The position numbers were made by a program, and so were the translations under genes. Of a stretch of DNA of 64,000 bases, positions 6,811 through 61,548 are shown piece after piece. Under the pieces are notes generated by a model. That model searched no databases, had not been told where the DNA came from, and saw nothing but the letters and a program-made list of their open reading frames with translations. The stretch is taken from assembly GCA_018894105.1 (NCBI GenBank), contig CM032121.1:2667507-2731506 (forward strand), read 5' to 3'. This stretch comes from Jacaranda mimosifolia. Lineage: Eukaryota > Streptophyta > Magnoliopsida > Lamiales > Bignoniaceae. Every line of letters starts with the position of its first letter. Within the stretch, counting starts at the first letter, position 1.

Positions 6811-8400
6811 ATGATCAGTGTGTGTGGATGGTTTAAACCAAGATTTGTTTACTTGTTATTCTTTTACTTGAGGTTCTCTATCAATGCAATAATTAATATC
6901 TTGCGTCTTTTCATCCAAATCAATTTTAGAATGATATCTCATGAATTTTACTACACAAATAAACAAATATACAAACAAACAAACAATAAATAAATATATA
7001 AATAAGAAAGTCACTTTTTTGTATTGCTTTAGAACGTCTAGTAAATTAAAACTTATTTAAAAGATCTTATAAATTCATATATTTTATAAAATATTTTTGC
7101 TTATAACTTATAAGAAGTAAAAATTTAATTTTAAAATAACTTATTGAAGTGTTGGTAATTAAAATAGGCTGGATAAAAAAAAAATTAAGTTTATAAGATG
7201 TTAGTAATGATAGTTTTGTAATTAAAATTATCAAAACTAAATATTTATTAAAAATTTTAAAATAAGTTAGGACCTCTTCACTTTTTTGAAGAGCCTATAA
7301 GATCATAATATCTTATTTAATTTATAAGATCTTAACATCTTATTTTAGAATATTATAAGCTCATACTTTTTTAACATCTTATAAGTTCTTAAAGATCTTA
7401 TAAGATATTTTGATAAATTTATAAACTTACCTAAACACCCTCTAATTCACAAATAGGCTGACTTTTAAAGCTCTCCACATATTATTCTAATTTTTACACA
7501 ATCCCAATATATAATATGTTACAATACCGTATTAATTCATTGTGAATCACAAATAATCTAGTGCATCAAACTCTTCAATTTGCTATACTTACTCAATTCT
7601 TATCCTTGAAACAAGATTAGTGTGTGTGCATGGTTTGAACCAAGATTTGTTAACTTGTTGATGTTTTACTTGAGGTTCTCTATGAATGCAATAATATCAT
7701 TCGTCTTTTCATCCAAATAAATGTTAGAATGATGTCACATGAATTTTACTGCACAAACAACCAAACAATAAATAAATAAATAAGAAATTGACTTTTTTTG
7801 TATTGCTTTAAAGCCTTAGTTGAACTTAATTATTTAAAAGATCTTATAAACTTTTACATCTCATAAAATATTTTTGAATCTTATAAGAAATAAAATCTTA
7901 ATTTTAAAATAAGTTATTAAAGTATTGGTAATTTAAAATAGTCTTGGATTAAAAATTGGAAGTTTATAAGATATTGGTAATAATAATTTTGCAATTAAAA
8001 TGATCAAATTAAATGTTTGTTAAGATTTTGAGAATAAGTTAGGGTTCCTTTATTTTTTTAAAGAATCTATAAGATTCTAATATCTTATTTTACAAAATCC
8101 TAGTATCTTATTATATAATCTTATAAACTCTTACACTTTGCAACATTCCATAAGCTTTTAAACATCTTATAAGATATTTTGTGAAACTTGTAAACTTACA
8201 TAAATATCCTCTAATTCACAAGGAGTCTTACGTTTCAAATTCTCCACATATTACATATTCTACTTTTTACACAATCCTAATATATAATTAATATGTCAGA
8301 ATATCCAGCTAATTCATTGTGAATCACAAATAATCTAATACATCAAATTCTTCATTTTGTTATATCCTTTCCCAATTCTTATCCTTATCGTGTTTGTGTG
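6811..8400. repeat. Two tandem ~800-bp copies of a MITE-containing unit; outer end of left palindrome arm
   Basis: The motif GTGTGTGNATGGTTTNAACC recurs at about 6,818 and 7,621. Each copy continues into TTATAAG-rich DNA (7,015-7,445 and 7,800-8,217) that ends in a CACCCTCTAATTCAC-like end (decayed in the second copy), followed by a similar AT-rich tail. The second copy and most of the first pair with 60,370-61,548 in reverse. The palindrome appears to break at about 7,149. Confidence 0.75.
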
Positions 8401-8961
8401 TGTATGTATTATCACATGTTCGCCATTTTGCTCCAATGACAAAGAATACGTAAAGAACTGCCAAACAGTTACCATCTTGAAATTAAATGAGTAATAACAT
8501 TAGGAATAAGTCCCTCTAACCCTCGTACGTACCATTAAAATATCATCTCTGGATCAACAAAAACCACTCAATGCATTCTTAATTTTGATGGCTAAGGTTG
8601 TTTTTAGATTGAAGCTGGTTTCGAGTGCTATGAATTTCAAATTGATCAACCGAAGTTTACTTCAGTAAGATGGAAGAGTACAAATAAATGTGGAACAAAT
8701 CAACACTAAGCGTATTTTTAATATTATGTGAGTAAAGTATTTATATGAGGATGTTGAGTTGGGCCTATCCTTTTAAGTTTAGATGGCTCGTAGTGATGGA
8801 GCCACACTGTTGGATTTAATAACCGAACATATTTAATACTATAAAAAAATAGGACATCGACTACAATTAATTAATAAAATTGATTTAGCCAAATTTGAAG
8901 TAAATACTCTCGTATCTAACCCTCACTACAATCAATGTATAGATGATAATTATTATATATA

Positions 8962-9107
8962 CTAGCAATTTTGGCACAGTCGATGCATGTGCCAAAACTT
9001 TTAAAATATATAATAAGTAAAATGAATATTTGTTTTAGTATAATATTAACTTTTTAAAAAAATTATAATTATTAAAATACAGTGGTATATATTTTTGCGG
9101 TGCCATT
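8962..9107 (-). mobile_element. Helitron 3' terminus (truncated copy)
   Basis: Read on the minus strand, it ends in a 10-bp perfect hairpin (stems 8,988-8,997 and 8,969-8,978, loop of nine) followed by a short spacer and CTAG (8,965-8,962), next to T. This is the expected Helitron 3' end. The body is cut off at about 9,103-9,107, where an LTR begins. The full-length equivalent is at 59,128-59,837. Non-autonomous; no Rep/helicase coding sequence. Confidence 0.65.
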
Positions 9108-12100
9108 TGTAGCACCCCATCTCGGGATGACACCCTAGCTAAGGAGCCACACTGATCCAGTCTTGATCCTTAACACACAAACAAACAATAAGCCCATAAT
9201 GAGCTTTTCAAAACTCATCAGAAATGGCAGCCACTGATTTCAACTTAAGCAAATCTCAACAAAAGTACTATATACCAGTCATAGTTGATCCCATAATATT
9301 CTACGTAATATATATACCACATATTATAATTCAACCTGATATGTCACAATATCTCTAAGTTAAAGCTTAACATTCGAGTAGACCCATATATATACTTAAA
9401 ACACCTATTCCAGTACAAAACATAATTTTCTCTTGTTCAAGCCAGAAGTCCACATCCATCACTTAACCCTGTCTGAGAAAAAGAGAGATAAAATGGGAGG
9501 GTAAGTCTAAAGGACTTAGCGAGGGATAATTGTAAGTAAGCGGTAGGGATTTATCGAGGAAGAATCAACTCAACAGATCATCATTTAACAGTCAAAATAG
9601 AAACAGATCAAGATACAGGCAGTCAAGAATCAGTTTACAAACAGATCAGATCACAAACAGTCAGGAACAGTCACAGACATTAACAAATTCAATGTTATTA
9701 GTAGGTACTAGCACGGGGGTTGTGATTGTCAGCTCAAACGGCCCAGGATCGTCTCAACCAATCCTATTTGTGAGGAATAGGGATATCTCAATCGATCACA
9801 GTCGAGACGAAATACAGACGGCTCGTTCGGCCTGGACAGCAGCCCAATCTAGACCAAGAAACTGCACCATCCTTGTTGCTCCATGAGCAGGATACAAACA
9901 ATCGGAATATAATCAAAATCAAGTAAACCCAAGTAACATATGTAGTCCAACAGATCACAACATGACATACATATCAGATTCTCCTTATTCCAGTCAATCA
10001 GTCAGTCAGATTACCAAAGAGTGATAGCTTGGTACACAGTAGGAGCCCATACAGATTGTATGGCGCGTTACGGATCCCTAAGTGTACTATTTAGCGTACC
10101 ACTAACACCTAAGGGAAAATCCTTAGCATATCATCGACACTTATGTGGGCTAAATGGCATGTCCCATTTATCTAAGCATTCTATTAGGATTGGCGCTCGA
10201 CCCAAACAAGTCTCCATTCATATAATAGAATTAATAACTGTTTGTGCAGATGCCTAGGGGAAATCCCTAACACACTGCCATCCAAGACAAAACATTATAG
10301 AACAGAACAAAAATGCCATCAAAGCAACACAATAGTAGTAAATAGATTCAAATAAGCCAGCATAGCCAATTAACGCTAAACAGATAAACAAGTATGCTGG
10401 CAAGGCAACAGATAACAATACCAAGACAGTACAGATAACAAGATAGTTAGACAACAAAGATACAGATACAAACAAAGGTTCTGGGTGCTAGAACAGACAG
10501 AAACCAGAATCAATAACAAACGATAGCCCTCACAGGGGTGTTCATATTAGATAACAGAAAACAATCAGAATTTCAAACAATTTCTAGATTTCAATCAAAA
10601 TAGAATACAGTACAGAAACAGAAACAGAAATAGAAATCCTCACAGGGGTTTACATAAGAAAAGATAAGTATGAGAAGGTGCCAGATTAGCTAGCCCTCAC
10701 CTTTGTAGTCTCAGCAAAAGCAATCACAGTCAGCAATCTATTGATCAACAAGACCCACTTCTTCGTCACCTAATCAAAAGAGTATTTCATATTCAAAATC
10801 CCCATTCAACTCTAATAACCCTCTACAGTTTCACCATTAAAAGATTAAAATCACTAACCTATCAATCAATACGATAATTAAGATTCACTAGGTACTATCG
10901 ATACAGAGTACGCTAATTAAGTTGATTATTAAAAAAAATGTCATGAGGTTGTATCGGTTCCAAAAATGGCATGCAATCTAGTCCTTAATTACATAATCAT
11001 TCTCATGATATTATCCAAAATCCACAATAATGGCTTAATCTTCATAATTAATCCCAACCGTTGCCACTTAGGTTTTAAATCTCCAAAACTAGGGTTTTCT
11101 TATTTAAATAATCTCAATAAATCCCAAATTTAACATATATCAATACAGATTCAGGTCCACTGATTCAAACAAGGTCCATGCATGTATATAGAGATCATCA
11201 CTTGATATATATTTCTTAATTCTTCTGAAATACAAAATTCATATGAATTTAATGATACAAAATCTTAAAGCCCAAACCCGATCATTACCCCAAAATGCTC
11301 AATCAAAACTTTGAACTCACAAACTGAGAGCACCACCGCGATCACCGCAATGGGAGGAAGAAACTATCCTATGATTACTGCCGTCACTGGCCATCGCCGG
11401 AAAAGCTCAAACCACCACCAAGACTTGCGTTTTAGCTCAGTGAACCAAATGCTGAGGTTAATTTTAGCAATAGTCATTGCGAAAGCCTTCAATTTCTTCC
11501 TTGGAAGTACAACACCGGTGAGCTCTGCCATCATATTTCAGCCCAATTCTACCTTGCCATCACCTAAAACCTCAATCAAAGCCTACCATCTTCATCCTTG
11601 AGCTGAGACCTTCCAAACGTACCCTGGGTTGCTGCGAAAACCTACTGGAATGTAGAGACCTACCATGTTCATTGTGGTCCCAGTTTCAGGCTACTTTTTT
11701 GGCCATTCAGCCAATTGTTTTCCGTTGCATGGCGTATGGTTGGGATCACCACGATGAGAGAAGGGTTTTAGCCAATTTAGCTTTGGGTTTCAGGGATTGT
11801 CGGATGGAGGTTTTGGAGGGTGCATATGGTGAAAATGAAGAAGGAAAGGAGAAGAAAATGATATGTAATGGTATTTTCTAAAAATTACAAATTAACCCTC
11901 AGAAGTTTTGCTTAGGTTCCAATTGAGTCCCCCAAGATTTGCACAAACTTCAATTCAATCCCTAAACTAGGTCAGTGCCTAAGATTAGCCCATTTGACCT
12001 TAAATAATTGCAATTCGACCCACAATACTTTTAAAGATTGCTTAATCAAGTTTCTGCAAATTGCAGTTTGACCCCAAAACTTTCAATTTCCTTACATTCA
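9108..12100 (-). mobile_element. LTR, minus orientation, lacking its first ~100 bases
   Basis: The terminal TGTAGCACCCC at 9,108 is the inverted complement of the GGGGTGCTACA that ends the plus-strand LTRs at 52,235 and 57,780. Body landmarks shared with other LTRs here, all in reverse, include GGGTAAGTCTAAAGGACTTA near 9,500, CCACTTCTTCGTCACCTAAT near 10,755, and TTTGACCCCAAAACTTT near 12,067. A short hairpin-unit array lies at 10,020-10,200. The normal LTR start should be reached near 12,190, but the sequence switches at about 12,100. The short frames are not genes. Confidence 0.7.
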
Positions 12101-12106
12101 ACAACC

Positions 12107-14456
12107 AAACCAACCCTCTTCCTCTCCTCTTCACCAGCTCCCTGACAGTACAACATGCACGGTGGGATGACCAGCGAACTACCAAGACGTTGAAGCTAAG
12201 AAATAAATCACGGCGGGTGGTGGTGGGTTTCTATCTTTTCAGCAACCAAACTTGATTCTGGGGTGTGGATTAGGTAGAGCTCAGCTGGATGAGCACTTTG
12301 GTAACCTTGCCTGGAAGTTTAGTGCGGCGGCAAAGGTAGAATCTGACAAAGACAGCACGACAGAGCAATGTAGTTTTAGGACTTTGGGGCGGTGTTTGAG
12401 GCTTTTCCCGGTGGCGAAACTCAAATTTGGTGGTGGCGTTGGGTTCAAAAGGCTGAAAGGCTTCTGGTGGTGGTAAGTTTGTGTATTTTCGGCGACGGCA
12501 GATGGCTGTGCTCCGGCAACCCTGGACCAGTTTCACCTTCTCGACGCGACGATTGCAATCGTGTAATCAATTTGTGGTTTTGATACTCCAGTGGCAAGCT
12601 TTGGCATTTGGATTTTGTTGTACCTTTAATACATATATGTTGCATATGTTGTACCTTTCCTAACTTAGCATTGTACCTTGCCTAGAATAGGAATTTGGGA
12701 AGAGATTATATGTTTATATATACGTATGTTGATCCCTATACAAGGAGTACGAAAAAGTGGACCTAAACTTATGCAAAATGCCAAAACTTGGATTTAAAAT
12801 AGTATTAAGGATTATATTATAAGATTAAATGGCATTTGATTAGGAATTGATTATGTAAGGATCAACCACATTATGGGAATTTGGATTATGACCTTGAAAT
12901 AAGAATGAGATACCGTATTAATCGATAAGTTAGTGATTCTAGATTATTAATGGCATAATTGTGATTAATAGGATTAAGTATGGATTTTGATTATAAATAT
13001 TACTTTCTTGGTTAGGTGACGAAGAAGTGGGTCCCACAAATCAGTAGACCGTAAATTTTAGTAGCTTTTTCTGAGATTACGGAGGTGAGGGTCTCCCACT
13101 TTGGGTTATTGCTTTGCATAACCCCTATGAGAGTTAATTTGCTTGATTACACCTGCTCGTAAATTGCTTGATTCGTACTTGTTGTACTTGACTCGTACTT
13201 GCTCTTTTATTAGAATCTGAATCAATCAGCACTTGCTCAATATCTGTTAGTGGCTTGTATACCCCTGTGAGGGTTAGTACTTGTTCACTCGTTCTTGTTT
13301 GTTCTGGCAACCAAAACTCCTGTCTGTCATGCCTGGTACTTGTCTTGATCGTACTTGTATGTTCTTGACTTAAATCGTTATTAGATGCCTTGCCGGCATA
13401 CTCGATTGTTTGTATCCTAATATCTAGCCAGTTGACTTATATGTACTTGCTTGTTGTTCACATATTGCCTCATCGGCAACTCTAATTGCTTGAATCGTAC
13501 TTGTTGTACTTGCTTGGAGATAGTACTTGGGCTAGTGCCAATCCTACATAGAATGATGGGATACTTGGGACACACCTTGCAATCCGCCTGGGTGTCCAGG
13601 ATACGCTATGCATTCCGCATAGGTATCCGCAATACGCTAAGCAGTCTGCTTAGATATCCGCAATGCGCCATACAGTTTTTATGGGCAATGCGCCACACAA
13701 TCCGTATAGGCACACCAATTGTATGCCAAGCTGTCACGCTGTGGAAGTACTTGCTTTATTGGTATAAGGTGATCTGATATACATATCTTAACTCGTTTTG
13801 TTGGAATACATATGCTATAAGGGTTTGCTTGCTCGTACTTGCTTCTTACTTGATTGTAATATATTCTTGGAGCAATAAGGCATGAGAGTTTCCTGTTTAT
13901 TGGTCTCAGTCTTGATTGAATCGTAACTGTACTTGTATTGCTTAATGACATTAAATCTGTTGAGATGTTCTTTCCTTAACAGGTTATATTATCGTTTGAT
14001 ATATTATCCCTCACTAAGTCCATTGGACTTACCCCCCATTTTTCATTACTTTTTGCAGACAGGCTGGCCTAAGAATGGAATGTTCTAACTTGAAGCATAG
14101 GAACATTTCTTTTGTAACAGTTGGGTGTCTTTTTGTATAGGGATTATTAGAATGCTATGTGGTAACATAGAGATGTTGAGATATGTCAGAGTTGACAGGG
14201 CCACCTTGAGCTTGTGTACATAATTTTGCTGAACGTCTAAGTTTGAACTTTGGCATGAATGTTAATGGTTGGTAGTATTATTTAAGTTGATATTTTTCCG
14301 CTGCTTTTGAAATTGTCATTTCTTTATATGACTTGGAATTGGAAAGAAAATTTTGGGCCTATTGTTTGTATTATAGGTTCAGAATTTAAGCTTGAAATGT
14401 ATTGATATCTCAGCTTTGGGTTACCCAGAGTGAGGTGTCACATTAGTGGTGTTACA
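12107..14456 (+). mobile_element. LTR, plus orientation, 5'-truncated
   Basis: It carries the same landmarks in forward orientation: GGTGACGAAGAAGTGGGTCC near 13,015, GGAGGTGAGGGTCTCCCAC near 13,081, CCTCACTAAGTCCATTGGAC near 14,010, and a GGTGTTACA terminus at 14,456. The part 12,120-12,560 is GC-rich with overlapping frames on both strands, which I regard as LTR sequence, not a gene. It holds a 31-base hairpin minisatellite (13,560-13,735). It is joined head-on to the minus LTR at about 12,100, and its end abuts a minus-strand polypurine tract where a primer-binding site would be expected. Confidence 0.65.
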
Positions 14457-16200
14457 CATTTCCCCCTTAAAAGAATCTAGTCCCCAGATTCTTATTTTAA
14501 CTAGATGAACTTCGATAATATCTATACACATAATATTCTGGTTCCTCATTGCCTCAATCACATGTTATCTCAATACTTAAGATATGCTCCATTTCAGTTT
14601 TGATGGGGTGCATGGTCTTACTTAAAAGATCATAAAACTATTATCGTAACAAACAACTAACAACATCACAAATTCACACTTACATACTATTTACATTAAG
14701 AATTCAAACTTAACATACTAGTTTTCATAATAAATCATACATTCCCAACAACTAGTTACAAGTTCACAAAACTAAACATATTAAATATAGCCACAAATGA
14801 TAAGTCTGCTGCTCCTTAGACTCTGTTTGGGTATAGGACCAAAATACGCAGTATCAGACTTTCCTTCAACATTCAGAACTTAGGTAGAACCTTTAACCAC
14901 CTATTTCTTTTTTCCTTTTTCCTGCTGGTGTTGGACCTTTCCTCTTGGAGCAGTCTTTTAGGAAGTGTTGGTTATTGCCACAGCCTATGCACCAACCCTA
15001 TTTTTTCCAACATCTAGACTTCTCATGGGTATGTGATCTACTGAATCGACATTGCTTTTGTGCCACTAATTGGACCTTCAGCCGTTTCCCATCTAGTTCA
15101 CTCTCTTTACTAGCAGTGATTTCCAATTCAGAAACTTTTCCTCGCTTGCCTTTCTTTTCATCGGTAGATACTTCAAGAGGTTCTTCTTCCACACATAAGG
15201 CTCTTGCTAAAGCTTCTTCAGAGTTAGACTGCTCGTAAGGCATAAGAATTTATCGTCTCTTCGATCTCAATCCCTTAACAAACTTCTTAGTTTTATACTC
15301 TTCTTTCCTCCATATCTGCAGTGTGTACCGCAACAATCGATAGAATCTTGCTTCATACTGCCACATGGTCATATCTTCTTGGGTAAGATTCTCAAACTCT
15401 TGTTTCTGGGCATCTCTTACTTCTCATGGTATGAATCTATCCATAAATTCCCACATAAAATTGTCCCAAGTATGAGAGACCTTCTTATATTCCCATTGTT
15501 GACTTACCAAGGTCCACCATTGACCTGTAGCTCCTTTTAACAGATGAATAGCAGATGTGAGTTTGAAGTCATCCGAGTAATCTATCATTTGGAATATATC
15601 TTCGATCTCCCTCATCTAAGCTTCTGCCTTTTGGTGGTCTGATTCACCCGTGAACATTGGGGGGTGGAACTTAAGGAAATGTGCCAAAGTCCCAGACTAT
15701 AGAGGTCCTTTTCTTATCTCGAGGCTATCTATCTGACCTTGTTGCTAGTGTGATTGTAGGAGTTGCTGATGCATTGCACTCATCGGCTTTATAACCTCTT
15801 TCCTTGATGTTGAATGCGCTCGTGGGTCTTGTGCCCGTTCTTCGACACTCCTCAGGCATTTTCATTTTGAGGTATCCTCTTCTAGATTTTCTTGACCAAG
15901 GGAATGCGTAGGAGTTAGTTTTGATGACGCCATTTGGTGGGTTGGAAATTTCTCATTAGTAAACCACACTTGCTTGCATCAATGAAACGGGCTGTTTTAT
16001 CAGTTTATATCTAGTCGCTATTAGTCCTTATTGCGCAAGGTTCAGGATATATATACACCCACAAAGCTTTCAGTATTCCACAATTCTAACAAAGATTCTA
16101 TCGCTCTTATTCTCTTTTCTTTCTCATTCCTCAATCCCAAGTAATTTAAAATTCTTAATAAGATTACTATAACTCAATCTAAATAATCATTCATTCATTT
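14457..16200 (-). mobile_element. Internal region of a gypsy-type element (polypurine tract plus gag)
   Basis: On the minus strand it ends with a polypurine tract (complement of TTTCCCCCTTAAAAGAATCT, 14,459-14,478) that closely resembles the gag-only element's tract at 54,363. It contains a broken gag. No pol (protease, reverse transcriptase, RNase H, integrase) and no primer-binding site can be seen. It grades at about 16,000-16,300 into another LTR piece. Confidence 0.65.
14950..15933 (-). pseudogene. gag pseudogene (Ty3/gypsy-type)
   Basis: Reading from a plausible start at 15,933 (MASSKLTPTH), the gag frame can be followed through several in-frame stops. Recognisable parts are a PPMFTGES-like stretch, the conserved core with AIHLLKGATGQWW near 15,530-15,570, W-DNF-EFMDRFIP (ending near 15,427), and a QEFENL-Q motif just after. 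These fit the retrotransposon gag capsid family (Pfam Retrotrans_gag type). Further on is a charged linker (14,998-15,243). At least four stop codons make it non-functional. In the element it would form the virus-like particle shell. Confidence 0.75.
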
Positions 16201-16309
16201 ATTCCCTGAATACATTCCTTCCCGCGATAATCCTTACTCACCATATATGACTTCCATAATTATTACTCACACAGTGTTGATTTCCAAAATAACTCTCTAC
16301 ATACCAAGT

Positions 16310-17117
16310 GCAATTTTTTTCCCAATTAGTCTTCTACTCATCAGATCAGCTTTCGTGTATGTGTCCCTCTCGATGAGACGCGAAAACTACCTATTCACCG
16401 CTGCTGTCGGAGATGGCCAACCACACCACCAAAAGATGCCTCTCAGCTTAACTAACCAAACCCCTCAATTAATTTTAGATTCAGATGTCAATTGGCCGAA
16501 AAACCGCAAGCCCACCACTAACGTCATAGCCATGTTTTCTTCCGATTCCATTGCCATTGGTGGTCCGCTCTGAAATCTAAAGCTACTAGCGTGCTCCATA
16601 AGCTGAGAGCTACAAAACCCACCACTCAGAACTTAGCTTCCGTCCCCGAAATGCCGCATCCATCAAGCTTCGTCATGGCTGAGCGTCGCCGGAGTTGATC
16701 GCCGTAGAGAGAGAATGGTGGTTTTGGTGGAGAAGAAGATGCAAATTTTGGGAGGGGGTGAAATTATAAATTTATTCTTTATAGAATTGATCTTTCTCTA
16801 TTCGTAGATTGACCCCATAAATTTTTGCCCAACTTCTAATTAAGTCCTCCCAAATATTGAGCATCTTCAATTTAGCCCCTAAACTTATTAGTACCTCAAT
16901 TCCACCCACTTGAGCCTAAATATTTCCATGCAAACCCCTAGAATAAGTAAATATGGTCTAATCAAGTCTTCTCAATTTGTAATTTGGCCCTAAAACTTTT
17001 AATTTCCAAGCAATTAAGTCCTTTTAATAAATTTTTCAAGTCCTAAAATTCGATCAACCAATATCTTTATTTTTAAACCCTTATTTTTCAAAAATACTGA
17101 ATTTTAGGTGTGTTATG
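16310..17117 (-). mobile_element. Truncated 3' LTR of the left gag-only element
   Basis: Matches the first ~900 bases of the right-arm 3' LTR (54,379-55,300) in reverse, including GGACCACCG and the TTGGCCGAAAAA region. It ends at 17,117 next to the polypurine tract (17,118-17,133). The terminal dinucleotide reads CA on the minus strand, the same variant seen at 54,379. The rest of this LTR is missing, replaced by the scrambled block to its left; the junction is not sharp to the eye. Confidence 0.75.
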
Positions 17118-17167
17118 CTCCTCTCCCTTAAAAGAATCTGGTCCATCCTCTCATCTGAGCAATCCTG

Positions 17168-18492: not shown

Positions 18493-18777
18493 ATCAATTC
18501 TACCAACTCTTCTAAGCTTCTAAGAATAAAAGAAAGAGAAGGGTTATACAAAATCAAATCAGACTCATAGACATACAAGTCTAATCATCCTATGATATAC
18601 GACAAGATCCCATAGACATCCTATAGTACGCAAACTCATTTTCCTAATATCAACTGATTAAATTTATCTTAATTCCCTAAATCACATAGAAGCTTCCCAA
18701 TACACAAAACACCTAAAATTCAAATTCAAACTAACTCTAAACAAAAGGGTAGTCACAAATCCCAATGATATCTAAAT

Positions 18778-19251: not shown

Positions 19252-19298
19252 ACCTAAATGTCTAGGTCATCGACAAACCTAAGCTCTGATACCACCTC

Positions 19299-22693: not shown

Positions 22694-22698
22694 ATATG

Positions 22699-29290: not shown

Positions 29291-29455
29291 ATGACATCAA
29301 TTTAACATATATAGACAAGTATTCTTCAATCTCTATGGGAGGTGTTTGGTGCTAGGCAATAGTATGAGACAGGGTCTTTAATATAGGATAATAACCTTTT
29401 TTTTATATCCACCACTGGGAGTATGGGCTGGTTCTAAATTTTTCCTAAACCTGTC

Positions 29456-33070: not shown

Positions 33071-34564
33071 TTGTATTGCATACAACTTCTTTCTTGATTT
33101 GCTTTCCTGTAATGCAAAATGAGTTGTAGCTCAACAATTTATAATACTTCACATGAGAAGAAAAAAAAAATTAAAAAAATTGGTGGAAAATGTCTGTTTA
33201 GATCATTTATTTCAATTTATATTTCATCTCCTATTCTGTTTTATGAATATATGACACGTATATTAAATATTTTTTTTATAAAAATAATTAATTAAAAATC
33301 AAATACGCTTCATATATATATATCAAATTAATATAAGTGATGAGATATAGAATAGAATAAAGAATTCAAAGTGAAAAACGTAGTACATAAAATATACATA
33401 TATTTGTCAGAAGTTGTATGAATGGAGCATCCCGACGTCGTAATTGCATGTTGATTCTTGATTGGTTTATTTCTTTTTTCTTTTTTCTTTTTTCTTTTTT
33501 TACCTGATGAATTGGAGTCAGCAGTAATATAGTAGCCCACGTGATTGCAATTGATTTGGCTATTTTCTTTTCTTTTCTTTTTTTTAATTTTCTTAACAGA
33601 ACAAATTGTGATTTTTCTTTTAAAAAAGATTGTTTGCATTTGGGATATTCTTTTGTTTAATAATTTCAAAATAATTATATTTGGGTTCTCAAGAATCAGT
33701 ATTTTTTTAATTGGTTGGGTATCCATTTTTGTTTTGTTTCGTATTGTCTTGTTATATTTTTTATTTTTTATTTTAATTTATATTTTATTTCATAAATATA
33801 TATTATATATATGATCTACAATTTTGTACGAAAATATAGAAATTATGTCAAATCAACGTCGTATAATTTTATTACATATATAACATAATTTTTATTATTT
33901 AATTTATTCACATTAGAGACATACAAAATTTTTAAACATGTAGATAAACTACTTTTTGCAATAATAATTAAAAAAAATTATAGTGTATATGTAAGTTAAT
34001 GCAAGATTTTTATTTTCGTATTTCCTTTAATAGAAGATATTGCTATATTGTGTCTTATTTTGTGATTCATTATTAATATAATAAGTTAAGACCTTAAGGG
34101 CTAAACACAAAATTAAAAAAGTCAAATTAATTAAATAAAAAGAAAATCCATTCAAAATGAGCTTCACAATTTAAATGGGCTCAAGTCTAATAAGAATTAA
34201 ATTAATATAAAAATCAATTCTTATAATAAAAAAATATCTATACACTCAATTTTTATTTTTTTTTATTTTTTATCAAGGCCTAATTCTAGATGGGCACAAT
34301 CCAAAATCAAAATTCTACCATTTGATTGATTTATAAAAAGAAAACCTAAATTCATGTCGGTGTACCATCAATTATGTTACAAAGGACATGAGCATTTATT
34401 GGGGAAAAAACTCACGTGATGGCATTTATTGATGGAGTTATGGACCTCAGTTTTCGGTGAGATTACCACATTCCGATCGATTACTGTGGTATTTATTGGT
34501 TGGTGTACTATTCTCCGTGCGGGGTTGGTGAGGCCACTTATTTCCCATCTTTATTATTCAATGC
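33071..34564 (-). promoter_or_regulatory. Upstream region of left PLAT gene
   Basis: Pairs with 38,828-40,329. TATA-like ATTATAAAT lies about 70 bases before the start (around 33,145-33,135, minus). A near-palindrome CTTCTCATGTGAAG sits just upstream of it. A CACGTG G-box with ABRE-like flank (complement of GCCCACGTGATT) is at 33,538-33,543, and a second CACGTG is at 34,413-34,418. Such boxes are bound by bZIP factors in ABA responses; use here is inferred. Short AT-rich frames (e.g. 33,328-33,814) arise from T/A-rich tracts and are not genes. Confidence 0.65.
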
Positions 34565-36484
34565 GTGGCAATTTTAAGTTTACTAAAATAAGCAAGCCAA
34601 GGTTTACACCACTTTTTTGTCAAAATTAACTTTTCAAGTGGAGTAGTTGGTGGCTCAACAGTTTAAGTCTCTTAGGCCTATTTTGGTTGGAATGATAAAG
34701 TGAGATATAATATTTTTATTCCATATTATTATTCGTTTGATTGGAGTGACAATAAACACTTAGGCCCGCATGAATATCAAAAGTTCGTGTTTATATGTAT
34801 AATTTTCATTATAAATTAACCTCTCATCTCCCATAAGTTTATTTATCATGCCAATTAAATCATATCATAATGATAAAAAATTACATAAATTATCACATGA
34901 TAAATAATCATAAGATAATTTAAAAATCCAACAAAACTAACCCTTATATAATATGAGAAGTCGGGGATTCGAACCATAACCCCTAATATATATATGTTTA
35001 AATTAAAAGAAAAATTCCAAATTGACTGAAATTTACAATTTGAAAGTGCCAACGACATCAGTTTAATAAATCCCTAACATGTCTATGTATAACAAGAAAA
35101 AGCAAAAAAAACGTGGCAAATAATTAATTCAACCCTCCAACCTTATTCACACGTTCCTGACACGGGTGGATATTGACCTCAGCTAATTAATTCAACCCAC
35201 GCGTCATTTTGTAAGCCTCAAGTTCTTTGATGGATATGTTGGGAGACTCATGTTTATATAAAATTATTGAGATATTTATGATTGGATAAGGTATATTGAC
35301 CTCTACTTTGGAATATGCCTCCTGATTAATATGGTTGAAAAACCTTAATATGGGCTCATTTGGTTTCATTTTCAAAGTTTATTTTCGCATTTTTTATTAT
35401 TTTAAAAATAAAATATATTATTTTTTATACTTTTCACCCAATATTAATTTAATTTTTATTTTTAAAATATATTTTCTCATAACTTATATACCTTTTTTCA
35501 ATAACATATATATCTTCTTTTTTTATTCTATTATTTATATATTTCTCACTTACAACCTACTAAATTCAATATAATCATTACTTTTTCAACAATAAATTCA
35601 AATACAAACTCATTTTCAATTTATTTTCTTATAATCAGCATAATTTTGGATTTGGTTCAATCAAACTTGACCACGTTGATGAAAGTGCTTTGTAAATTAA
35701 GTTATTTTAACAATATATTATAACCTGTTAAATAACATTATACTATAAATACTCCCAATTACTCATTTTACAGGTACACTTAAATTTAATGCAAGTTAGT
35801 CTCTTTCAGAACTTACCTGACTCGTATACTAATATGAGCATTGGTGTTTTACTTGAAAAATTCTTAATGACCCTAATTTGTCGTAATTTCATGATTTTTC
35901 TTTTTTTTTTTTCTTTTGATAATTTGTAATTTCATGATTTTGATATATGTTTTGAATTGATTTGACCCATTAAAAATTTATACTACCCAACTTAAATTAT
36001 TTTGAGATAATGAGTTGGGTATGTCTAAAATTAGGTACTGCTTGATAAGTGTTTAATGTTAGACACATTATTTAAGAGAGTACTTGCTATCTGTTAAGCA
36101 AGTTATAATTACTTGCTACTTATTGAGCAGTTTGTAATTACCTACAACCTATATTATCAGTTATTTATGGTTTGTACTTGTATATATTTGGTTCATTGAA
36201 CCAAATATGTATTATTTGTTGAGTATTAAAGCCTTTTATAAAGGTTCAAGTAAATAAGATCTATTAAGAAAAAGGATTTAAACATATGAATTTACTTTAA
36301 TCCATTCTTAAATTTGGATTAAAAAATTAATATTTCATAATTGATTTATAAATAATGGTTATTCACATTTTAACTTCATCATCATATTTTATCATCATCA
36401 GTTGAGAATTTATTTTAAAATACAATTTAATGTTTTACAAATTCAAATATATTCTATGAAATACAAAAATTGGTAAAGTGTTTT
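34565..36484. other. Unique part of palindrome spacer
   Basis: Very AT-rich single-copy DNA with no supported gene. The frames at 34,855-35,574 are biased toward AT-rich codons. A GGGGATTCGAACC motif at about 34,963 resembles a tRNA B-box but lacks an A-box or clover-leaf. A perfect small palindrome is at 36,184-36,208. Confidence 0.55.
36184..36208. repeat. 12-bp perfect palindrome with 1-base centre
   Basis: ATATTTGGTTCA, then T, then its exact inverted complement. Lies in the spacer. No known element assigned. Confidence 0.8.
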
Positions 36485-44792: not shown

Positions 44793-44959
44793 GGCAGGTT
44801 TAGGAAAAATTTAGAACCAGCCCGTATTCCCAATGGTGGATATACAAAAAGGTTATTATCCTATATTAAAGACCCTGTCTCATACTATTGCCAAGCACCA
44901 AACACCTCCCATAGAGATTGAAGAATACTTGTCTATATATGTTAAATGATGTCATGTCA

Positions 44960-51800: not shown

Positions 51801-52235
51801 ACTGAATTTATCCCTCACTAAGTCCTCTGGACTTACCCTTCCGTTTATTCTTGCTTTTCTCAGACAGAACTAAGTGATGGATAAGGATTCCTGGCTTGGA
51901 TTGGAGAAGATATGTTTTGTAATAGAACATGTGTTCATATGTGCGTATGGGTTCATTTGAAATGTTAAGCTTTAATTAAGAAAGATTGTGATATGTTAGG
52001 TTTGAATTAAATATCTGCAGAGTGGATATATTATGTTGAATGTTATGAGACCTCTGATGGTATGTATTTGGTATTTTAATGAGGTTTGTTTAAGATGAAA
52101 TCTGTTGCTATCCCTGATAATTTTTGAAAGAAATTTTTTTTCTAACGGACCTAATGCTTGTATTATGAGTTAAGATTTAAGACTGAATCAGAGTAGCGCT
52201 TCAGCTTAGGGGCTATCCTGGGAGGGGGTGCTACA
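48831..52235 (+). mobile_element. 5' LTR of right gag-only element
   Basis: 3,405 bases, TGTAACACCCC to GGGGGTGCTACA. Contains the ~30-base hairpin minisatellite (50,656-51,046; 51,250-51,385) and a GC-richer stretch at 49,190-49,640. Frames such as 49,460-49,804 are LTR sequence that also appears in the other LTRs with frame breaks. Confidence 0.9.
50656..51385 (+). repeat. LTR-internal ~30-bp hairpin minisatellite, 5' LTR
   Basis: Units like GTACCAAGCCRTCAAGCTTG followed by GGTAAGTTAT. At 51,250-51,373 four near-identical 30-base units (GTACAAGGTTGTCATGCTTA core) are in register, giving a ten-residue peptide repeat in one frame. The 3' LTR has only two of these (56,875-56,945). Confidence 0.85.
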
Positions 52236-52239
52236 GAGG

Positions 52240-52251
52240 TGGTATCAGAGC
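52240..52251 (+). other. Primer-binding site (initiator tRNA-Met type)
   Basis: TGGTATCAGAGC four bases after the 5' LTR end. This is the standard plant LTR-element primer site complementary to the 3' end of initiator tRNA-Met. Confidence 0.92.
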
Positions 52252-52282
52252 TTAGGTTTGTCGATGACCTAGACATTTAGGT

Positions 52283-52730
52283 TAGGGATGGCAAAATAAT
52301 CCCCAATTCGTGTATATAGTCCCTGCCCTCGTTAAAATACCCTTAATATATGTATATATATTATTTTTTATACTTTTTAGTAATTTCATATAATTTATAA
52401 AAATTTAGTAGTCATAAAATATAAATAAATAAAATATATTAATTATTAAAATATATTGATTGTGCTTAAAATTACCACTTAGAGTTGCTTTAATCATAGG
52501 CATAGAGGTTATTCTTTATTTTTTAGTCTATTGTATACACACAATAAAAAAAAAAATTAACTCTGGGGATCCCCGCAGGGATCCACGGGGGTTCGGGGAA
52601 AGGGGCAAAAAATTCCCTATGACAGGGATCGGGGACGGGGACGGGGACGGGGACGAAGATGGGGGAACGAGTAGGGCTCGAGGATGGGGGAGTAATTCCC
52701 CACCCCCGCCCCGTTCGGGTGCCATCCCTA
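52283..52730. mobile_element. hAT-type MITE with perfect 8-bp target duplication
   Basis: TAGGGATGGCA to TGCCATCCCTA, 448 bases. It is flanked by ATTTAGGT at 52,275-52,282 and 52,731-52,738. Strongly G-biased near 52,560-52,700, with GGGGAC repeated. The inverted counterpart is at 18,778-19,251. It sits between the primer-binding site and gag. Confidence 0.92.
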
Positions 52731-53013
52731 ATTTAGGTATCATTAGGATTTGTGACTGCCCTTTTGTTTAGACTTAGTTTGAATTTGAATTTTAGGTGTT
52801 TTGTGTATTGGGAAGCTCCTACGTGATTTAGGGAATTAAGATAAATTTAATCAGTTGATATTAGGAAAATGAGTTTGCGCACTATAGAATGTCTATGGGA
52901 TCTTATCGTATATCGTAGGATGATTAGACTTGTATGTCTATGAGTCTGATTTGATTTTGTATAACCCTTCTCTTTCTTTTATTCTTAGAAGCTTTGAAGA
53001 GTTGGTAGAATTG

Positions 53014-54340
53014 ATGGCAACCCAAGGAAGTTTCGGTACACCTGTTCTGCCTAGAACTAAACGACGAGGAGGACCTCCCAGGCGACGGTCATTGATAGAT
53101 GTGCTCCAAGATGAGAGGCACCTACTTACCCACAAGCCATGCAAGAAGAAAAGGTTTCACAAATCCTTTCAATGGATCAACTAACAGACTCTGTAAATTA
53201 GAGGAGACCAGAATTTAGGCAATAGGGTCAACAACTAAGTGCTGGAGTAGAAGTTGTTAACTAGATGACTGAAGATTGAGCGTTGGAATGGTTCCTTCAT
53301 TTTGATCCCCCGAAGTTCTCAAGAGGCCCTGATGATAGAATAGCTGAGAAATGGATTGAGTTTAGAGAATACTTTTGAGACACTGCATTATCCAGATGAG
53401 CAGAGGGTTCAATTTGCCACGTTCTTTCTAGAATGTTCTACCAGAAGTTGGTGGAAGATGATTGATCGAAGGTGGATGGCTGAAGGAACCCATTGAACAA
53501 AGGATAATTTCACCTAAGACTTTATGAATAAATATGTGCTAGAGGTGGTAAAGCAAACAAGAGAGAGAGAGTTTATGGACCTTGTATAGCGGCCATAGTA
53601 CGAGGCTATTTTTAGCTAACTGATACAATATGCTCTCTATATATAGGATGATGAAGGTCAACAGACCCGATGATTTATGCAAGGGTTGCTGCCGAAACTT
53701 AGAAAGAGGCTAGCCACTTGTGATATGATGAACTTCAACCAAGTAGTGAGCAAGGTGTTGCAACTTGAGTCAGAGCTACAAGAGATCTGAAAAATTGAGG
53801 ATAGGGGTTGAAAGGAAAAGATGCACCTCGATGGGCAAAGTAATGCTGGAAGAAAACAATTGAGACTCCAGGTTGAAAGCACTACCCAATGAGCCCCTCA
53901 AACTAGCAGGACAGTAAATTTGACTCAAGAAGGTGCACATGCAGTTCGGATTTTGTGGATTACTTAACCATAAGGAGTCAAATTTTTGGAGACAACAAGG
54001 CAGATGCATGGGCTGTGGAAGTGGCCGACATTTCCTGAAAGATTATCCTAGAAGGAGAGGCCCAACACTTGTAGGAAAAGGAAAGTAGGTGGCATGAGCT
54101 AGCGCGGAACAAAGGATTCGAGCTCCTGCCTACGCTCTGACTGGGAAAAAAGCATTGGATCCTAACGAGATGGTAGAAGGTATGGTTTCTAATTCTGGAA
54201 ATTATGATAATACCATATATGATCCTGGTGTTCTGCAAAAAATTTTCAAACTTGTCTCATTTTCTCAAATTAAATATGCAACCGGAGACTATAGTTTGTC
54301 AAATAGAAGTTCATGCACCATGTATCGGGATTGCTCAGAT
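53014..54340 (+). pseudogene. gag pseudogene of right gag-only element
   Basis: Starts at 53,014 (MATQGSFGTPVLP), then is broken by stops after about 57 codons and by further stops and shifts. Recognisable downstream: FDPPKFSRGPDD near 53,300, a KWIE core, SWWKMIDRRW-like near 53,445-53,470, and a QGLLPKLRKRLATCDM stretch near 53,680-53,730. The zinc-knuckle region is at 53,939-54,040. Here the first knuckle has lost two cysteines (positions 1 and 4), whereas the left-arm copy keeps them. The second knuckle ends in tyrosine in both arms. Capsid-like role in ancestors; not functional now. Confidence 0.8.
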
Positions 54341-54362
54341 GAGAATCGGAGGGACCAGATTC

Positions 54363-54378
54363 TTTTAAGGGGGAGGAG
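54363..54378 (+). other. Polypurine tract
   Basis: TTTTAAGGGGGAGGAG immediately before the 3' LTR. Primes plus-strand DNA synthesis in LTR elements. The same tract, complemented, is at 17,118-17,133, and a variant is at 14,459-14,474. Confidence 0.85.
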
Positions 54379-57300
54379 CATAACATACCTAAAATTCGGC
54401 ATTTTTGAAAAATAAGGATTTAAAAATAAAGATATTGGTTGATCGAATTTTAGGACTTGAAAAATTTATTAAAAGGACTTAATTGCTTGGAAATTAAAAG
54501 TTTTGGGGCCAAATTACAAATTGAGAAGACTTGATTAGACCACATTTAATTATTCTGGGGGTTTGTATGGAAATATTTTGGCTCAAGTGGGTGGAATTAA
54601 GGGACTAATAAGTCTAGGGGCTGACTTGAAGATGCTCAATATTTGGGAGGACTTAATTAGAAGCTGGGCATAAATTTATGGGGTTAATGTACGGATAAAG
54701 AAAGATCAATTCTATAAATAATAAATTATAATTTCACCAATCTCAAAATTTTCATCTTTTTCTCCGTCGAAACCACCATTCTCTCTCTACGGTGATCAAC
54801 TCCAGCGACGCCCTGAATAGAAAAACTAACCCAGCCAAATTGTTCCCCTCACTCCCTGGATCTCATCTATACCACATGCAACGTGAAAACACCGGCAGAT
54901 AGTAGAGACGTGAAGGTTCGAAACTCAGCCACGGCGGAGCTTGATGGGTGCGGCATTTCGGCGACAGAAACTAAGTTCTGAGTGGCGGGTTTTATAGCTC
55001 TCAACTCAAGGAGCATGCTTGTAGCTTTAGATTTCAGAGCGGACCACCGATGGCAATGGAATCAGAATAAAACATGGCTACGACGTTGGTGGTGGGCTTA
55101 CGATTTTTCGGCCAATTGACATCTGAGTCTAAAATTAATTGAGGGGTTTGGTTAGTTATGTTGAGAGGCATCTTTTGGTGGTGTTGTTGGCCATCTCCGA
55201 TAGCGGTGGTGAATAGTTAGTTTTCTCGTCTCATTGAGAGGGACACATACATGAAAGTTGATTGTGATTTCGGGGCTCTGATAAGAGGAAATTGGGTAAA
55301 AATGGGAATTAGGTTTAAATTATATGCACGTGTATGTATCTACCTTCCAAATCTTACGATACATTATACCAACGAAAGAACACGCGATTTGATTAGGAAA
55401 ATTGAGACATGCATATAATTGTATGAGTTAATGGAGCCGAATTATGTTATTTTACATAATAATCTTGGTTAATTAGATTAATTAGGTGATAAATCCCTAA
55501 TTTCATGGATTTGAGACCCAAGTGGAAATTGGGTTATTAAAGATAATTGGACCATTATTATTGATTTGGTGTAATAATACGAGGTTAATTATTGAATTAA
55601 GGACTTGATATTATCTCGTTCTTGACATCGACATGAGTAGCATGATTCCATAATGTTTATGTCGAGCCAACCCTAAAACTATCATATTAAGCGAATAGCT
55701 ATCGATTAACTAGTGATTTTTAACTGTTGATGGTATAATAGGAATTATTGGAGGTTATTAAGGTCGAATGAGGATTCTGACAATGAATATACTATTTTGG
55801 TTTGGTGATGAAGAAGTGGGCCCTGTGGACCAATAGTTGGTGACTGTAGTTTTTTGAGACTACGAGGGTGAGGGTCTACTACTTTGGTACTTGTTTTGTA
55901 TACCTTATCTAATATTCATTTCATAACCTTGTTAGGATCTGCCAACCTGGCGCTTCTTGTATATTTTTGTGATAAACCCATGTGAGGGTTTCTGTTTCTG
56001 TACTGAAAGCATCGTGTTATTGAAATTAGTAAATTGCTTGAGATCTCAATTGTTATCAGTTATATGATTGTTCTATTATCTGTTTGTCTATTATTTGATC
56101 ATTTTGTTATCTGTTTATCTGTTATCTAATCATTTTATTATCTGTCTGTCTGTTATCTGATCGTCTGTTATTCGACCGTTCTATTGTCTGACTGTTCTGT
56201 TATCGGTTATCTTTTTATCCAACGACATTTTTCCATGTACCAAGTCGTTATGCTTTAGTAAGTTATCTACCAAGCCATCAAGTTTGGGTAAGTTATGTAC
56301 CAGGTTGTCATGCTTGGGTAAGTTTGTACCAACCGTTGGTTTTGGGTAAGTTTGTACTAGGTTGTCACGCTTGGGTAAATTTAGTTTGATTGGAATAAGG
56401 AACATCTGGTATACATGTTCTATTTTGATCTATTGGTTGTATTTGTTATTCGGGTGGTTCTACTTTGATTGTATCCTTTAAGTTATGTACCAAGCCGTCA
56501 AGCTTGGGTAAGTTATGTTCCAAGCCAACAAGCTTGGGTAAGTTATATAACAAGTTGTCATACCTTGGTAAGTTTTTACCAAGTCGTCATGCTTGGGTAA
56601 ATTTGTACCAGCCGTCAGGCTTAGGTAAGTTTGTACTAGGCTATCATGTGTGGGTAAGTTTAGTTCGACTGGAATAAGAAACATTTGATGCACGTATCCT
56701 GATACAATCTGTTGAATTGCCTTGGTTAAGTGAATTTATTTTACTTGGCTACCTGTAATCTAATACGTTCGTAATCCGATTCTAATTGCTTGTAATTTGA
56801 TCTGTTTTGCTTGAATGTATCCTTACTGTAATTTCTTGATATACATGTTAAGTTTGATCTATTAAACTACATATGGATAAGTTTTGTATCAGGTTGTCAT
56901 GCTTGGGTAAGTTTTGTACCAGGTTGTCATGCTTGGATAGGTTTTGTTCGATTGTTATAAGGCTGTCCTGATATGGATGTTAAGTTTGAACCATTGAATT
57001 GCATATGATTCGGGTTTGTTGTTTTGATTGTATTCTGATTGCTTGTACTCCACTCGAGGAGCAATAAGGCTTGAGTAGTTTCTTGGTCTGGATTGGGTTA
57101 TTGTCCCGGGTCAAACGAGTCGATGGTAATTCCTCTCGAACTATGATTGACTGGGATGTTTTATACCTCCCAAACAGGATCGGTTGAGTCGATTAAGCCG
57201 TTGAGCCGATGGTAGCAATGCTCGAGCAAGGGCCTACTTGTTAAACTCTGATACTTGTTGAATTTATTACGATTTATATGTTGATACGTTCATGTTCTGA

Positions 57301-57780
57301 CCTCATTATTTTATTAGTTATGAACTGTCGAATTATTTTCTCTTTGACAATTTCTTTTGATTATTATTGAATTTATCCCTCACTAAGTCCTTTGAACTTA
57401 CCCTTCTTTTTATTCTTGCTTTTCTCAGACAAGACTAAGTGATGGATAAGGATTCTTGGCTTGGATTGGAGAAGATATGTTTTGTAATAGAATAGGTGTT
57501 CATATGTGCGTATGGGTTCATCTAAAATGTTAAGCTTTAATTAAGAAAAATTGTGATATGTTAGGTTTGAATTAAATATCTGCAATATGGATATATTATG
57601 TTGAATGTTATGAGACCTCTGATAGTATGTACTTGGTATTTGGATGAGGTTTGCTGCTATCCTTGATAAGTTTTGATTTTTTTTTTTTGATGGACCTAGT
57701 GCTTGTATTATGAGTTAAGATTTAAGACTGAATCAGAGTGGCACCTTAGCTTAGGGGCTATACCAAGAGGGGGTGCTACA
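54379..57780 (+). mobile_element. 3' LTR of right gag-only element
   Basis: 3,402 bases, homologous end to end with the 5' LTR. Its first two bases are CA, where the 5' LTR has TG, and the left-arm copy shares this change. Minisatellite clusters lie at 56,232-56,385, 56,478-56,670 and 56,875-56,945. Confidence 0.9.
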
Positions 57781-57785
57781 CATAT

Positions 57786-59127
57786 TCTTTACAAGCTTCG
57801 AGCATACATGAAAAGAACCCTTTTGGAAATAGTTTTCTAACGTTGATTTGTCACATATTGGATAAAATTATCCTGTGAAAGATTTTTAGTGGAAAGAAGA
57901 GAATATATAAGATGAAATGAAGTAAGAGAAAAGTAGTTTTTGTAATTGGTGTTACCAATGCCTCTTTTACTAATGTATTTTTTATTTTATTTTGGAGTGG
58001 ATGAAAATTATGTTGGGAAAATTTTGCGTTTGATTTTGTTTTATATACAGTGGGACATTTTGGACTTAAAATATCAAATTAGTATGCTTTGTCAGAGTTA
58101 ATGGAGTGAAAAATAATTCCATTTTAGTATCTTTTATGTGTAATTGTAATATGAGAAGATATAATTTCTTTTTTAAAGAAGGTCATGATTGATTTCCAAT
58201 TATTTACTATGAGACTCAAATCTTCAACTTGATCTATTAACAACAATGAAAGCTCACCACCACTCTTTTGATTTGTCGCTTAAGTTTATTATTAAACTTA
58301 TCTAAATAAGAGTTAACTCCTAAAAAGCACTTAAGGAATCAATATAGTTAACTCTTAAAATTAAATTTAAATATTAATACTAAAAAAATCAAATTGTATG
58401 GTGCGGTTCATTTATTTGGGCCTCAAACTGCAATCAAATCACACAGAATGGGGCAATTTTGAATGAATTTATATCATAATTTGATTTGGCTCTTAGCTAT
58501 ATATGCATATATATGTGTGTGAAATTTAAAATTTGAATTGTAATGAATTCGTAATGTATGTGTATATAGATAAATAAAAAAATAATAATTTTATTTATTA
58601 AAATATAAGAAAAAAGATTAGGTGCATTAATGACTAATGATGAGGATAAGACATGAAAAAGTTTAAAACAGTAAATCACTTGTGGTCCATAATAAATTAA
58701 TATAATTTGGTTTTTATAATGATAAGAATAGTACATGTTTGAAACTTTAAATTACCTCGGATTCAAAATAAATTAGTTCTTAACTATAAATATAGTTATA
58801 CAATTGTGTGATATAGATAATAAAGGAAAAGTTAACTTTGCTCGTGCAATTAACAAGTAATTCACTTAAAATCTAGAATTTGCGGTTTTCTTGATGGTCG
58901 ATGCGAAACACGTGCAAAATAATAATAATAATAATAATTTGTTGTCAAAAAGTTGTTAAAAAATTAATTTTATAATTATTCTTATAAATTATAATTACAA
59001 ATTTTCATAAAAAAAATATTTTTTTAAAAAAGAAGCAATAAAAATAATTAGCTACTAGTCCGTAGCCTCATTCATTGGAAGTGCAATAGATTAACTATGC
59101 ATTATTTATAGAAAAATTTATATATTA
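57786..59127. other. Right-arm-only intergenic stretch
   Basis: Not found in the left arm, where the scrambled retrotransposon block occupies this place. AT-rich, with an AAT microsatellite at 58,917-58,938. No gene supported. Confidence 0.55.
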
Positions 59128-59837
59128 TCTATATATACTATTAATAAAGCACATACCTTATTTTTGATATGTTTTCGTGTAATGTACTTAAAGTGTCCTC
59201 ACTTCTTTTCTTTAATCCTCATAACTATAACTTATATAATAACTAATATTTACAGTCCACACATACTATACTTATAAATATCATATTATCATATTTTTTA
59301 TGTTATTATACTAAAAAATTAAATAAATATCAAATATTACTTAAGAAATTAATTTTATACTAAAAAAAATTCATTTTAGTTACTTTATGCTATAAAAAAT
59401 TTAGTACATACATCGAATGTGCCAAAGTATACTTTTAATAGAAGGGTGGGATATAATTAATAGAATGTATGTACTTTACCTCCCTATGTTCTACCTAATA
59501 TTTGTAGATATTTCCATTCAGAAAAAATAATATTTGTAGATATTTGTGAAATATCTTATTAGATCTACCTAACTATGTTAACTAGCATAAGAGGTGAAGT
59601 ACCTACTTCCCTATGTTCGAATTAATATACTTATATGATCTTTTTTACAAATAAAATGTACATATGAGGTAGCTTACTCATACCCAAAACTAGTAGCACC
59701 ACGAAAATATATACCACTGTATTTTAATAAATATATTGTTTTTTAAAACATAATATTATACTAAAATAACTATTCATTTTACTTATTATATATTGTAAAA
59801 GTTTTAGTACATGCATCGAATGTGCCAAAGTTACTAG
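59128..59837 (+). mobile_element. Non-autonomous Helitron
   Basis: The 5' end TCTATATATACTATTAATAA follows an A. The 3' end has a decayed hairpin (GTACATGCATCGAATGTGCC region), then CTAG (59,834-59,837) before T. Insertion between A and T without target duplication is the Helitron pattern. No Rep or helicase coding. A second diverged 3'-end-like motif inside (59,400-59,430) hints at two related elements or an internal duplication. Confidence 0.6.

Positions 59838-60327: not shown

Positions 60328-60367
<40 letters not shown>
60328..60367. repeat. (CA)n microsatellite
   Basis: About 18-19 CA units. The left-arm equivalent near 8,394-8,404 is only a short GT stretch, so the array expanded in this arm or shrank in the other. 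Confidence 0.95.
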
Positions 60368-60369
<2 letters not shown>

Positions 60370-61548
60370 TAAGGATAAGAATTGGGAAAGAATATAACAA
60401 ATTGAAGAGTTTGATGCATTAGATTAGATTATTTGTGATTCACAATCAATTAGTTGGATATTCTGACATATTAATTATATATTAGGATTGTATGTAAGAC
60501 TGCTTGTAAATTAGGGGATGTTTATGTAAGTTTATAAATTTTCCAAAATATCTTATAAAATGTTTAAAAATTTATAGAATGTTGCAAAGTGCAATAGTTC
60601 GTAAGATCATATAATCAAATATTAGGATTTGGTAAAATAAGATATTACAATCTTATAGGTTCTTTAAAAAAAGTAATGAGATCCTAATTTATTTTCAAAA
60701 TCTTAACAAATATTTAATTTGATCATTTTAATTACAAAATCATCATTATCAACATCTCATAAACTTTCAATTTTTAATCCAAAACTATTTTAATTACCAA
60801 CACTTTAATAACTTATTTTAAAATTAAGATTTTATTTCTTATAAGCTTCAAAAATATTTTATAAGATGTAGAAGTTTATAAGATCTTTTAAATAATTAAT
60901 TTAACCAAGTACTCTTTAGAGCAATGCAAAAAAGTCATTTTGTTATTTATTGTTTGTTTGTTTGTTTGTGCAGTAAATTTCATGATATATCATTCTAACA
61001 TTTATTTGGATGAAAAGACGAATGATATTATTACATTCATATATAGAGAACCTCAAGGAAAAGATTAACAAGTTAACAAATCTTGGTTCAAACCATCCAC
61101 ACACACTAATCTTGGTTCAAGGATAAGAATTGAGTAAGGATAACAAAATGAAAAGTTTGATGCGCTAGATTATTTGTGATTCACAATGAATTAGTATGAT
61201 ATTTTAATATATTATATATTGGGATTGTGTAAAAATTAGAATAATATGTGGAGAGCTTTAAAAGTCAGTCTACTTGTGAATTAGAATGTGCTTAGGTAAG
61301 TTTATAAGTTTATCAAAATATCTTATAAGATGTATGGGTTTATAAGATTCTAAAATAAGATATTAAGATCTTATAAATTAAATAAGATATTATGATCTTA
61401 TTGGTTCTTTAAAAAAAAGGAAAAAAATCCTAACTTATTTTTAAAATCTTAACAACGATTTAATTTTGATCATTTTAATTGCAAAATTATCATTACTAAT
61501 ATTTTATAAACTTTATTTTTTTATCCAAAACTATTTTAATTACCAACA
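60368..61548. repeat. TTATAAG-rich MITE-like DNA, outer end of right arm
   Basis: Pairs with 7,149-8,390 in reverse, including the tandem-unit motif at 61,078-61,105. The homology stops near 61,548. Confidence 0.7.

Follow-up and report, generated by a model that had tools for sequence, protein, structure and literature searches.

A lossless inversion inside a tandem PLAT/ATS3-type gene array as the probable origin of a large imperfect palindrome in Jacaranda mimosifolia

A 31,701-bp segment of the 64,000-nucleotide stretch analyzed here (the window, C5:2667507-2731506) runs backward inside an array of directly repeated PLAT/ATS3-type genes, and turning it back restores at both ends joins that are present elsewhere in the array. 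The reversed unit is hybrid in its ancestry. We consider it very probable from these alignments that the array grew by unequal crossing-over, that the hybrid unit arose in this way, and that its segment was later flipped in place without loss. The original prediction had described a real, aged inverted segmental duplication. The arms do look real and aged, but an inverted duplication was contradicted, because both breaks close losslessly and the closed joins are present elsewhere in the array.

The array was analyzed by searching the genome (707 Mb, 65 contigs) with the PLAT exon. At least 33 matches were obtained, and the counts of loci are lower bounds. At least 20 PLAT loci were found at C5 2.437-2.901 Mb (21 of the matches; span C5:2436629-2900694), one of them being a weak 65% match. 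Among the matches listed, 19 of these 20 loci lie on the plus strand, and the sole minus-strand locus on C5 is the left copy in the window. The remaining matches were at least two on C3, nine on C9, and one on C18. Sequence around the window was examined from C5:2430001 to 2751506 (321.5 kb, zero N), and the array to the right of C5:2751506 was covered by search matches alone. Units were labeled in the order S, A, and X, with the S of the next unit after X; U0 denotes the unit immediately upstream of unit 1. The 321.5 kb were mapped by unit from 158 matches of 300 or more aligned bases. Apart from the inverted segment, the pieces specific to a unit (X, PLAT gene, and A-start) were all on the plus strand. 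Minus-strand matches were also given there by pieces of the LTR family and by several short repeats (among them parts of 35378-35628, 38084-38415, and 60511-60917); these were taken as dispersed repeats rather than reversed units. After the S-end and A-start of unit 3, the next PLAT exon is at C5:2733692, outside the window. The features are listed in Table 1.

Table 1. Features of the window and their positions (position 1 is the first letter of the window)
Feature	Position	Strand	Details
S1	1-2863	+	Right-hand part of the unit 1 upstream segment, which begins at C5:2665276; ends at the left breakpoint
Relic of another diverged S-end + A-start junction, within S1	1856-2170	+	75-79% to 38687-38931, 61991-62148, and the closed S/A join
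Left inversion breakpoint (S1/X1)	2863..2864	.	Closure alignment; genome junction search
Inverted segment (A1 + X1, unit 1)	2864-34564	-	31,701 bp; closure of both breaks, junction searches
X1, distal part of unit 1	2864-7148	-	Reversed relative to X at C5:2660991-2665275 (88.6%)
A1, outer part	7149-10830	-	U0-like; with X1 (10830-2864) 89.8% over 8.1 kb
LTR-family pieces and gag fragment (15427-15615, -)	10831-16344	-	Holds the switch from U2-like to U0-like
A1, inner part	16345-34564	-	Closest to A2 of unit 2
PLAT/ATS3-type gene, inverted unit	32376-33070	-	Exons 33070-33005 and 32861-32376; intact frame
Right inversion breakpoint (A1/S2)	34564..34565	.	Closure alignment; genome junction search
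S2 ("spacer")	34565-38827	+	Upstream segment of unit 2; direct matches elsewhere in the array
A2, unit 2	38828-61548	+	Original orientation
PLAT/ATS3-type gene, unit 2	40330-41025	+	Exons 40330-40395 and 40537-41025; intact frame
LTR retrotransposon	48831-57780	+	3.4-kb LTRs, CATAT flanks (ends by eye)
Unit 3: S-end + A-start	61576-62767	+	Third copy, direct orientation, 71-80%

PLAT/ATS3-type loci are strongly expanded in this genome; besides the at least 20 on C5, others were located at C9:33856482-34283916, C3:43033090-43046692, and C18:21251734. The C9 cluster comprises three plus-strand loci at 33.86-33.92 Mb and five minus-strand loci at 34.15-34.28 Mb, which is perhaps another, larger inversion. 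In unit 3 (C5:2733374-2739531), the downstream part was found to be locally tandem-duplicated, positions 41260-41782, 44796-45759, and 58160-59252 of A2 being matched there in two sets.

Window self-alignment paired the left arm (L, 7149-34564) with the right arm (R, 38828-61548) in inverted orientation with the order kept, as had been predicted, and the main blocks showed 92.7, 92.3, 90.3, 90.3, and 83.5% identity. An exact inverted partner in L was found for 3844 of the 22698 24-mers of R, compared with 12 in a control in which the reverse complement of L was read backward; a chance origin of the arm match is therefore excluded. Exact inverted matches between the arms reached 112 bp. The predicted inner arm ends, 34564 and 38828, were exact by alignment. 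However, the claim that nearly everything recurs between the arms was overstated, since 20,178 bp were matched in L (27,416 bp) and 17,338 bp in R (22,721 bp), and the only resemblance between L 9104-16344 and R 55263-59695 is of the LTR-family kind. The inverted segment also reaches farther left than predicted, to 2864, 4.3 kb past 7149. From the inside outward, the L-R divergence (K2P) was 0.061, 0.061, 0.080, 0.106, and 0.125.

We then considered the sequence between the arms. All but ~90 bp of S2 was matched directly by C5:2665276-2670368 (pieces of 86-93%), ahead of unit 1, and a partial S2 (34565-36033 and 38041-38794, without 36034-38040) was matched directly at C5:2577008-2579284 and C5:2602296-2604548. 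The spacer is simply the segment that normally precedes A in the following unit, not a special sequence between the arms. It also holds, at ~34661-34954, a dispersed short repeat (~280 bp) with at least 37 further matches across many contigs. Direct repeats that had been missed in the original prediction were observed within the window, pairing 1-1864 with 36485-38383 and 2280-2863 with 38234-38828. As observed, the direct match of S1 to S2 stops at precisely the base where R begins. In unit 2, S runs directly into the start of R, as it does in the third copy except for an insertion, whereas the start of L and the end of S1 both break off at this homologous base. Therefore, a former join of L to S1 was tested for.

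For this test, 2864-34564 was turned back between the cuts 2863/2864 and 34564/34565, giving the order S1-A1-X1-S2. The closed X/S join, consisting of the reverse complement of 2864-7148 followed by 34565, aligned without a break at nine other places in the 321.5 kb, the nearest being C5:2660991-2666381 (~5.5 kb, 88%). It reads ...ACTAAAA/GTGGCAA..., the same as in the adjoining units, with zero bases lost, and a similar word of ~13 bp was seen by eye on either side of it. The closed S/A join, consisting of 2863 followed by the reverse complement of 34564, aligned without a break at eight places in the 321.5 kb. Four of them have an S side of at least 140 bp (unit 2 itself, C5:2578721, C5:2603980, and the relic at 1856), whereas the other four are weak, with an S side of only 8-11 bp. 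One doubled G was the sole difference between the closed S/A join and unit 2 at the joint. It was looked at as a duplication from a staggered break, and it could equally be a filler base.

The present junctions were crossed by no other match within the 321.5 kb. In the whole-genome search with the left junction (40 of 572 candidates scored), no match besides itself crossed. The 42 matches comprised the junction itself, 20 S-half matches on C5, all plus, 13 X-half matches on C5, all minus, and eight on other contigs. All 33 other matches on C5 covered one half only, and their S and X halves are oriented opposite to the window junction. Similarly, no match besides itself crossed the right junction (40 of 1410 candidates scored); its 43 matches were the junction itself, five array matches with one half each, and 37 dispersed short-repeat matches. 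These results indicated that one segment lies opposite to the other units and that both of its breakpoints close to ancestral sequence. Because both joins close without loss and the closed joins are present elsewhere, the inversion is 31,701 bp long and balanced. Recombination between inverted repeats was rejected as its route, as the longest inverted match among the best 12 within 1.5 kb of each side of the breaks, in original order, was 24 bp. End-joining is for this reason the likeliest route, and we infer a balanced inversion that would have been sealed in this way.

The ancestry of unit 1 was analyzed with U0 and unit 2 as references. In the three-way alignment of L 7150-9103, K2P was 0.056 between L and U0 and 0.117 between L and R, and U0 and R differed by 0.124. 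The PLAT segment of L showed K2P of 0.054 to unit 2 versus 0.199 to U0, and the segment next to it showed 0.037 versus 0.147. The switch was located, in 1-kb steps, between 16345 and ~10830; L 10831-16344 resembles neither parent well, and the crossover point was placed no finer. For an X counterpart after unit 2, only a local repeat of 6813-7148 was matched within the window. Judging from these distances, unit 1 would already have been a hybrid before the flip, its PLAT side being the sister of unit 2 and its far side that of U0. The units are thus ordered as U0 (a), unit 1 (b-left/a-right), and unit 2 (b); one unequal crossing-over event leaves just such an order, which suggests this origin. 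Gene conversion was also considered for the rise in L-R divergence from the inner to the outer blocks (K2P 0.061 to 0.125); hybrid origin explains it better, as the outer L-R value (0.117) lies near that of the older U0-R split (0.124).

From these observations, we propose that the PLAT/ATS3-type array, with its units in direct order, would have expanded through unequal crossing-over, and that one crossover with its switch in the LTR-rich stretch would have produced the hybrid unit 1 between U0 and unit 2. The segment would later have been released by two double-strand breaks, at S1/A1 and X1/S2, and rejoined backward by end-joining with zero loss, leaving the two PLAT genes divergent around the 4.26-kb S2. 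We infer the crossover mechanism, the end-joining, and the order of these events. Such a flip would leave units 1 and 2 as the arms of an imperfect palindrome because most of their sequence is that of sister copies, and the outer arm ends would be less alike because unit 1 is a hybrid. In addition, S1 is patchy, with its relic junction and with S1-S2 K2P of 0.039 and 0.123 in two stretches, so that the history has more than two events, further small ones among them. The relic was perhaps left by a deleted unit.

Both arms carry a PLAT/ATS3-type gene of two exons, the first of which is signal-peptide-like. Pfam PLAT (PF01477) was matched with 50.0 bits in L and 47.7 bits in R (cut-off 23), and Pfam ATS3 (PF06232) with 37.5 and 35.7 bits, respectively (cut-off 27). 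The two genes differ by dS 0.148 and dN 0.024 (dN/dS 0.16). After the flip, their start codons are 7.26 kb apart and the genes face away from each other; the flipped gene retained 1.5 kb of its upstream sequence and has different sequence farther out. In the exon-2 tree of 14 examined copies of the 20 loci, the L and R genes were sisters (100/98). According to translations inspected by eye, exon 2 is open in eight of these 14 copies (of which one has a shorter end and another lacks a recognised first exon) and broken in six. Among the 10 window ORFs subjected to Pfam, these two genes and one retrotransposon gag (24.9 bits, cut-off 24.1) were matched. An ORF at 17171-17569, zinc-knuckle-like by eye, had no Pfam match above the cut-off, and Rfam (gathering scores) and ARAGORN gave zero matches across the window.

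The LTRs of the retrotransposon in R differ by K2P 0.164, and the sequence following its LTR 1 resembles a tRNA-Met primer site. Since the insertion junction of this element is also present in L at 22691/22692, the retrotransposon predates the unit duplication. Arrays of 29-31-bp tandem repeats were observed inside the long LTRs (20150-20855, 50663-51384, and 56235-56947), and they differ among the copies. The predicted triplication in L was confirmed as a 1.37-kb piece repeated head to tail at 23074-27102 (99.7-99.85%), with a single counterpart in unit 2 (47189-48445); by its sequence, the triplication is recent.

Two other origins of the arms were weighed against the proposed flip. The two inverted arms of 83-93% identity would favor a copying of unit 2 in reverse beside itself, but an extra reversed copy with the flanks still joined was not observed. 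S1 has no plus-strand A of its own, no extra plus-strand copy of A1 was seen in the 321.5 kb, and both flanks close on the reversed segment. Moreover, one homologous base marks both the end of S1 and the start of A1, the like holds for X1 and S2, both breaks close without loss, and X1 and the outer A1 are closest to U0 instead of unit 2. Since closing the two breaks in this way largely contradicts it, inverted duplication was rejected, and we regard it as extremely improbable. An assembly artefact, whether a head-to-head join of two haplotypes or a piece inserted backward, is very unlikely, although such errors can arise in an array of near repeats. The window and its flanks lie on one 41.1-Mb contig with no N in the examined sequence, and the arm blocks differ by K2P 0.06-0.13. 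Among the scored matches, the best other match to the junction halves (96%) is the window's own right arm, so that no second haplotype was seen. The head-to-head join, which had been put forward as the main alternative, appears to fit poorly and is disfavored, since the junctions are not predicted by it; nor would it predict S1 in direct order beyond the left arm or the hybrid U0 and U2 ancestry of that arm. A piece inserted backward would need blunt joining at exactly lossless points.

A further proposal, which could hold alongside the proposed flip, is that the inverted pair was kept because double-stranded RNA silences the PLAT family, as at the soybean I locus for chalcone synthase. By this analogy, the flip might have made an inverted pair whose small RNAs tune or silence the whole PLAT family, a natural counterpart of the I locus born by tandem-unit inversion. 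The geometry of two arms with a 4.3-kb spacer resembles that of the I locus, and the exact inverted matches of up to 112 bp would also favor it. However, the two genes are directed outward from the spacer, and a transcript of either would not reach across both arms; their differences are as under constraint (dN/dS 0.16); and the arms have diverged, whereas the I locus has perfect 10.91-kb repeats. We consider both the retention of the pair for silencing and such a role in the family very improbable.

Published studies describe related systems. At the soybean I locus, inverted CHS1-3-4 clusters form perfect 10.91-kb repeats with documented silencing (PMC3804491), and its segmental duplications recombine unequally and form hybrid genes (PMC3804491, PMC6710647). 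That locus shares with ours two inverted gene clusters, a spacer of a few kb, unequal recombination, and hybrids; its arms are perfect and silencing, whereas the arms here are diverged and silencing would be hypothetical. In a study of CRISPR-made inversions in Arabidopsis and rice tandem arrays, deletion-inversion alleles were frequent, and inversions were also obtained with staggered ends in protoplasts (PMC10600118). Inversions after cuts are similarly described for the poplar NRX1 array of seven genes and ~100 kb (PMC10460964). In these accounts, as here, an array segment was put back reversed after two cuts; nucleases made the cuts there, whereas the present case is apparently natural and known from one assembly. 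Tandem duplicates arise from unequal crossover, and parallel orientation is found in ~80% of Arabidopsis and 88% of rice tandem arrays, as stated and cited, respectively, in PMC2547482; the present array is, like those, mostly of one orientation. Unlike in ordinary plant tandem arrays, duplication and flip are here separable to the base because the neighboring units retain the unflipped order. Among the open papers listed, none appeared from its title and the beginning of its abstract to describe this locus.

All the processes proposed here are of known kinds, and the case is well resolved yet ordinary. It offers a base-level example of a large plant palindrome without any inverted duplication, in which crossing-over would have made the sister units and a lossless inversion would then have turned one of them. 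It also advises caution: where inverted arms lie in a tandem array, a comparison with the neighboring units should come before an inverted duplication or a haplotype mis-join is called. Finally, it provides a defined locus for asking whether such a flip seeds silencing.
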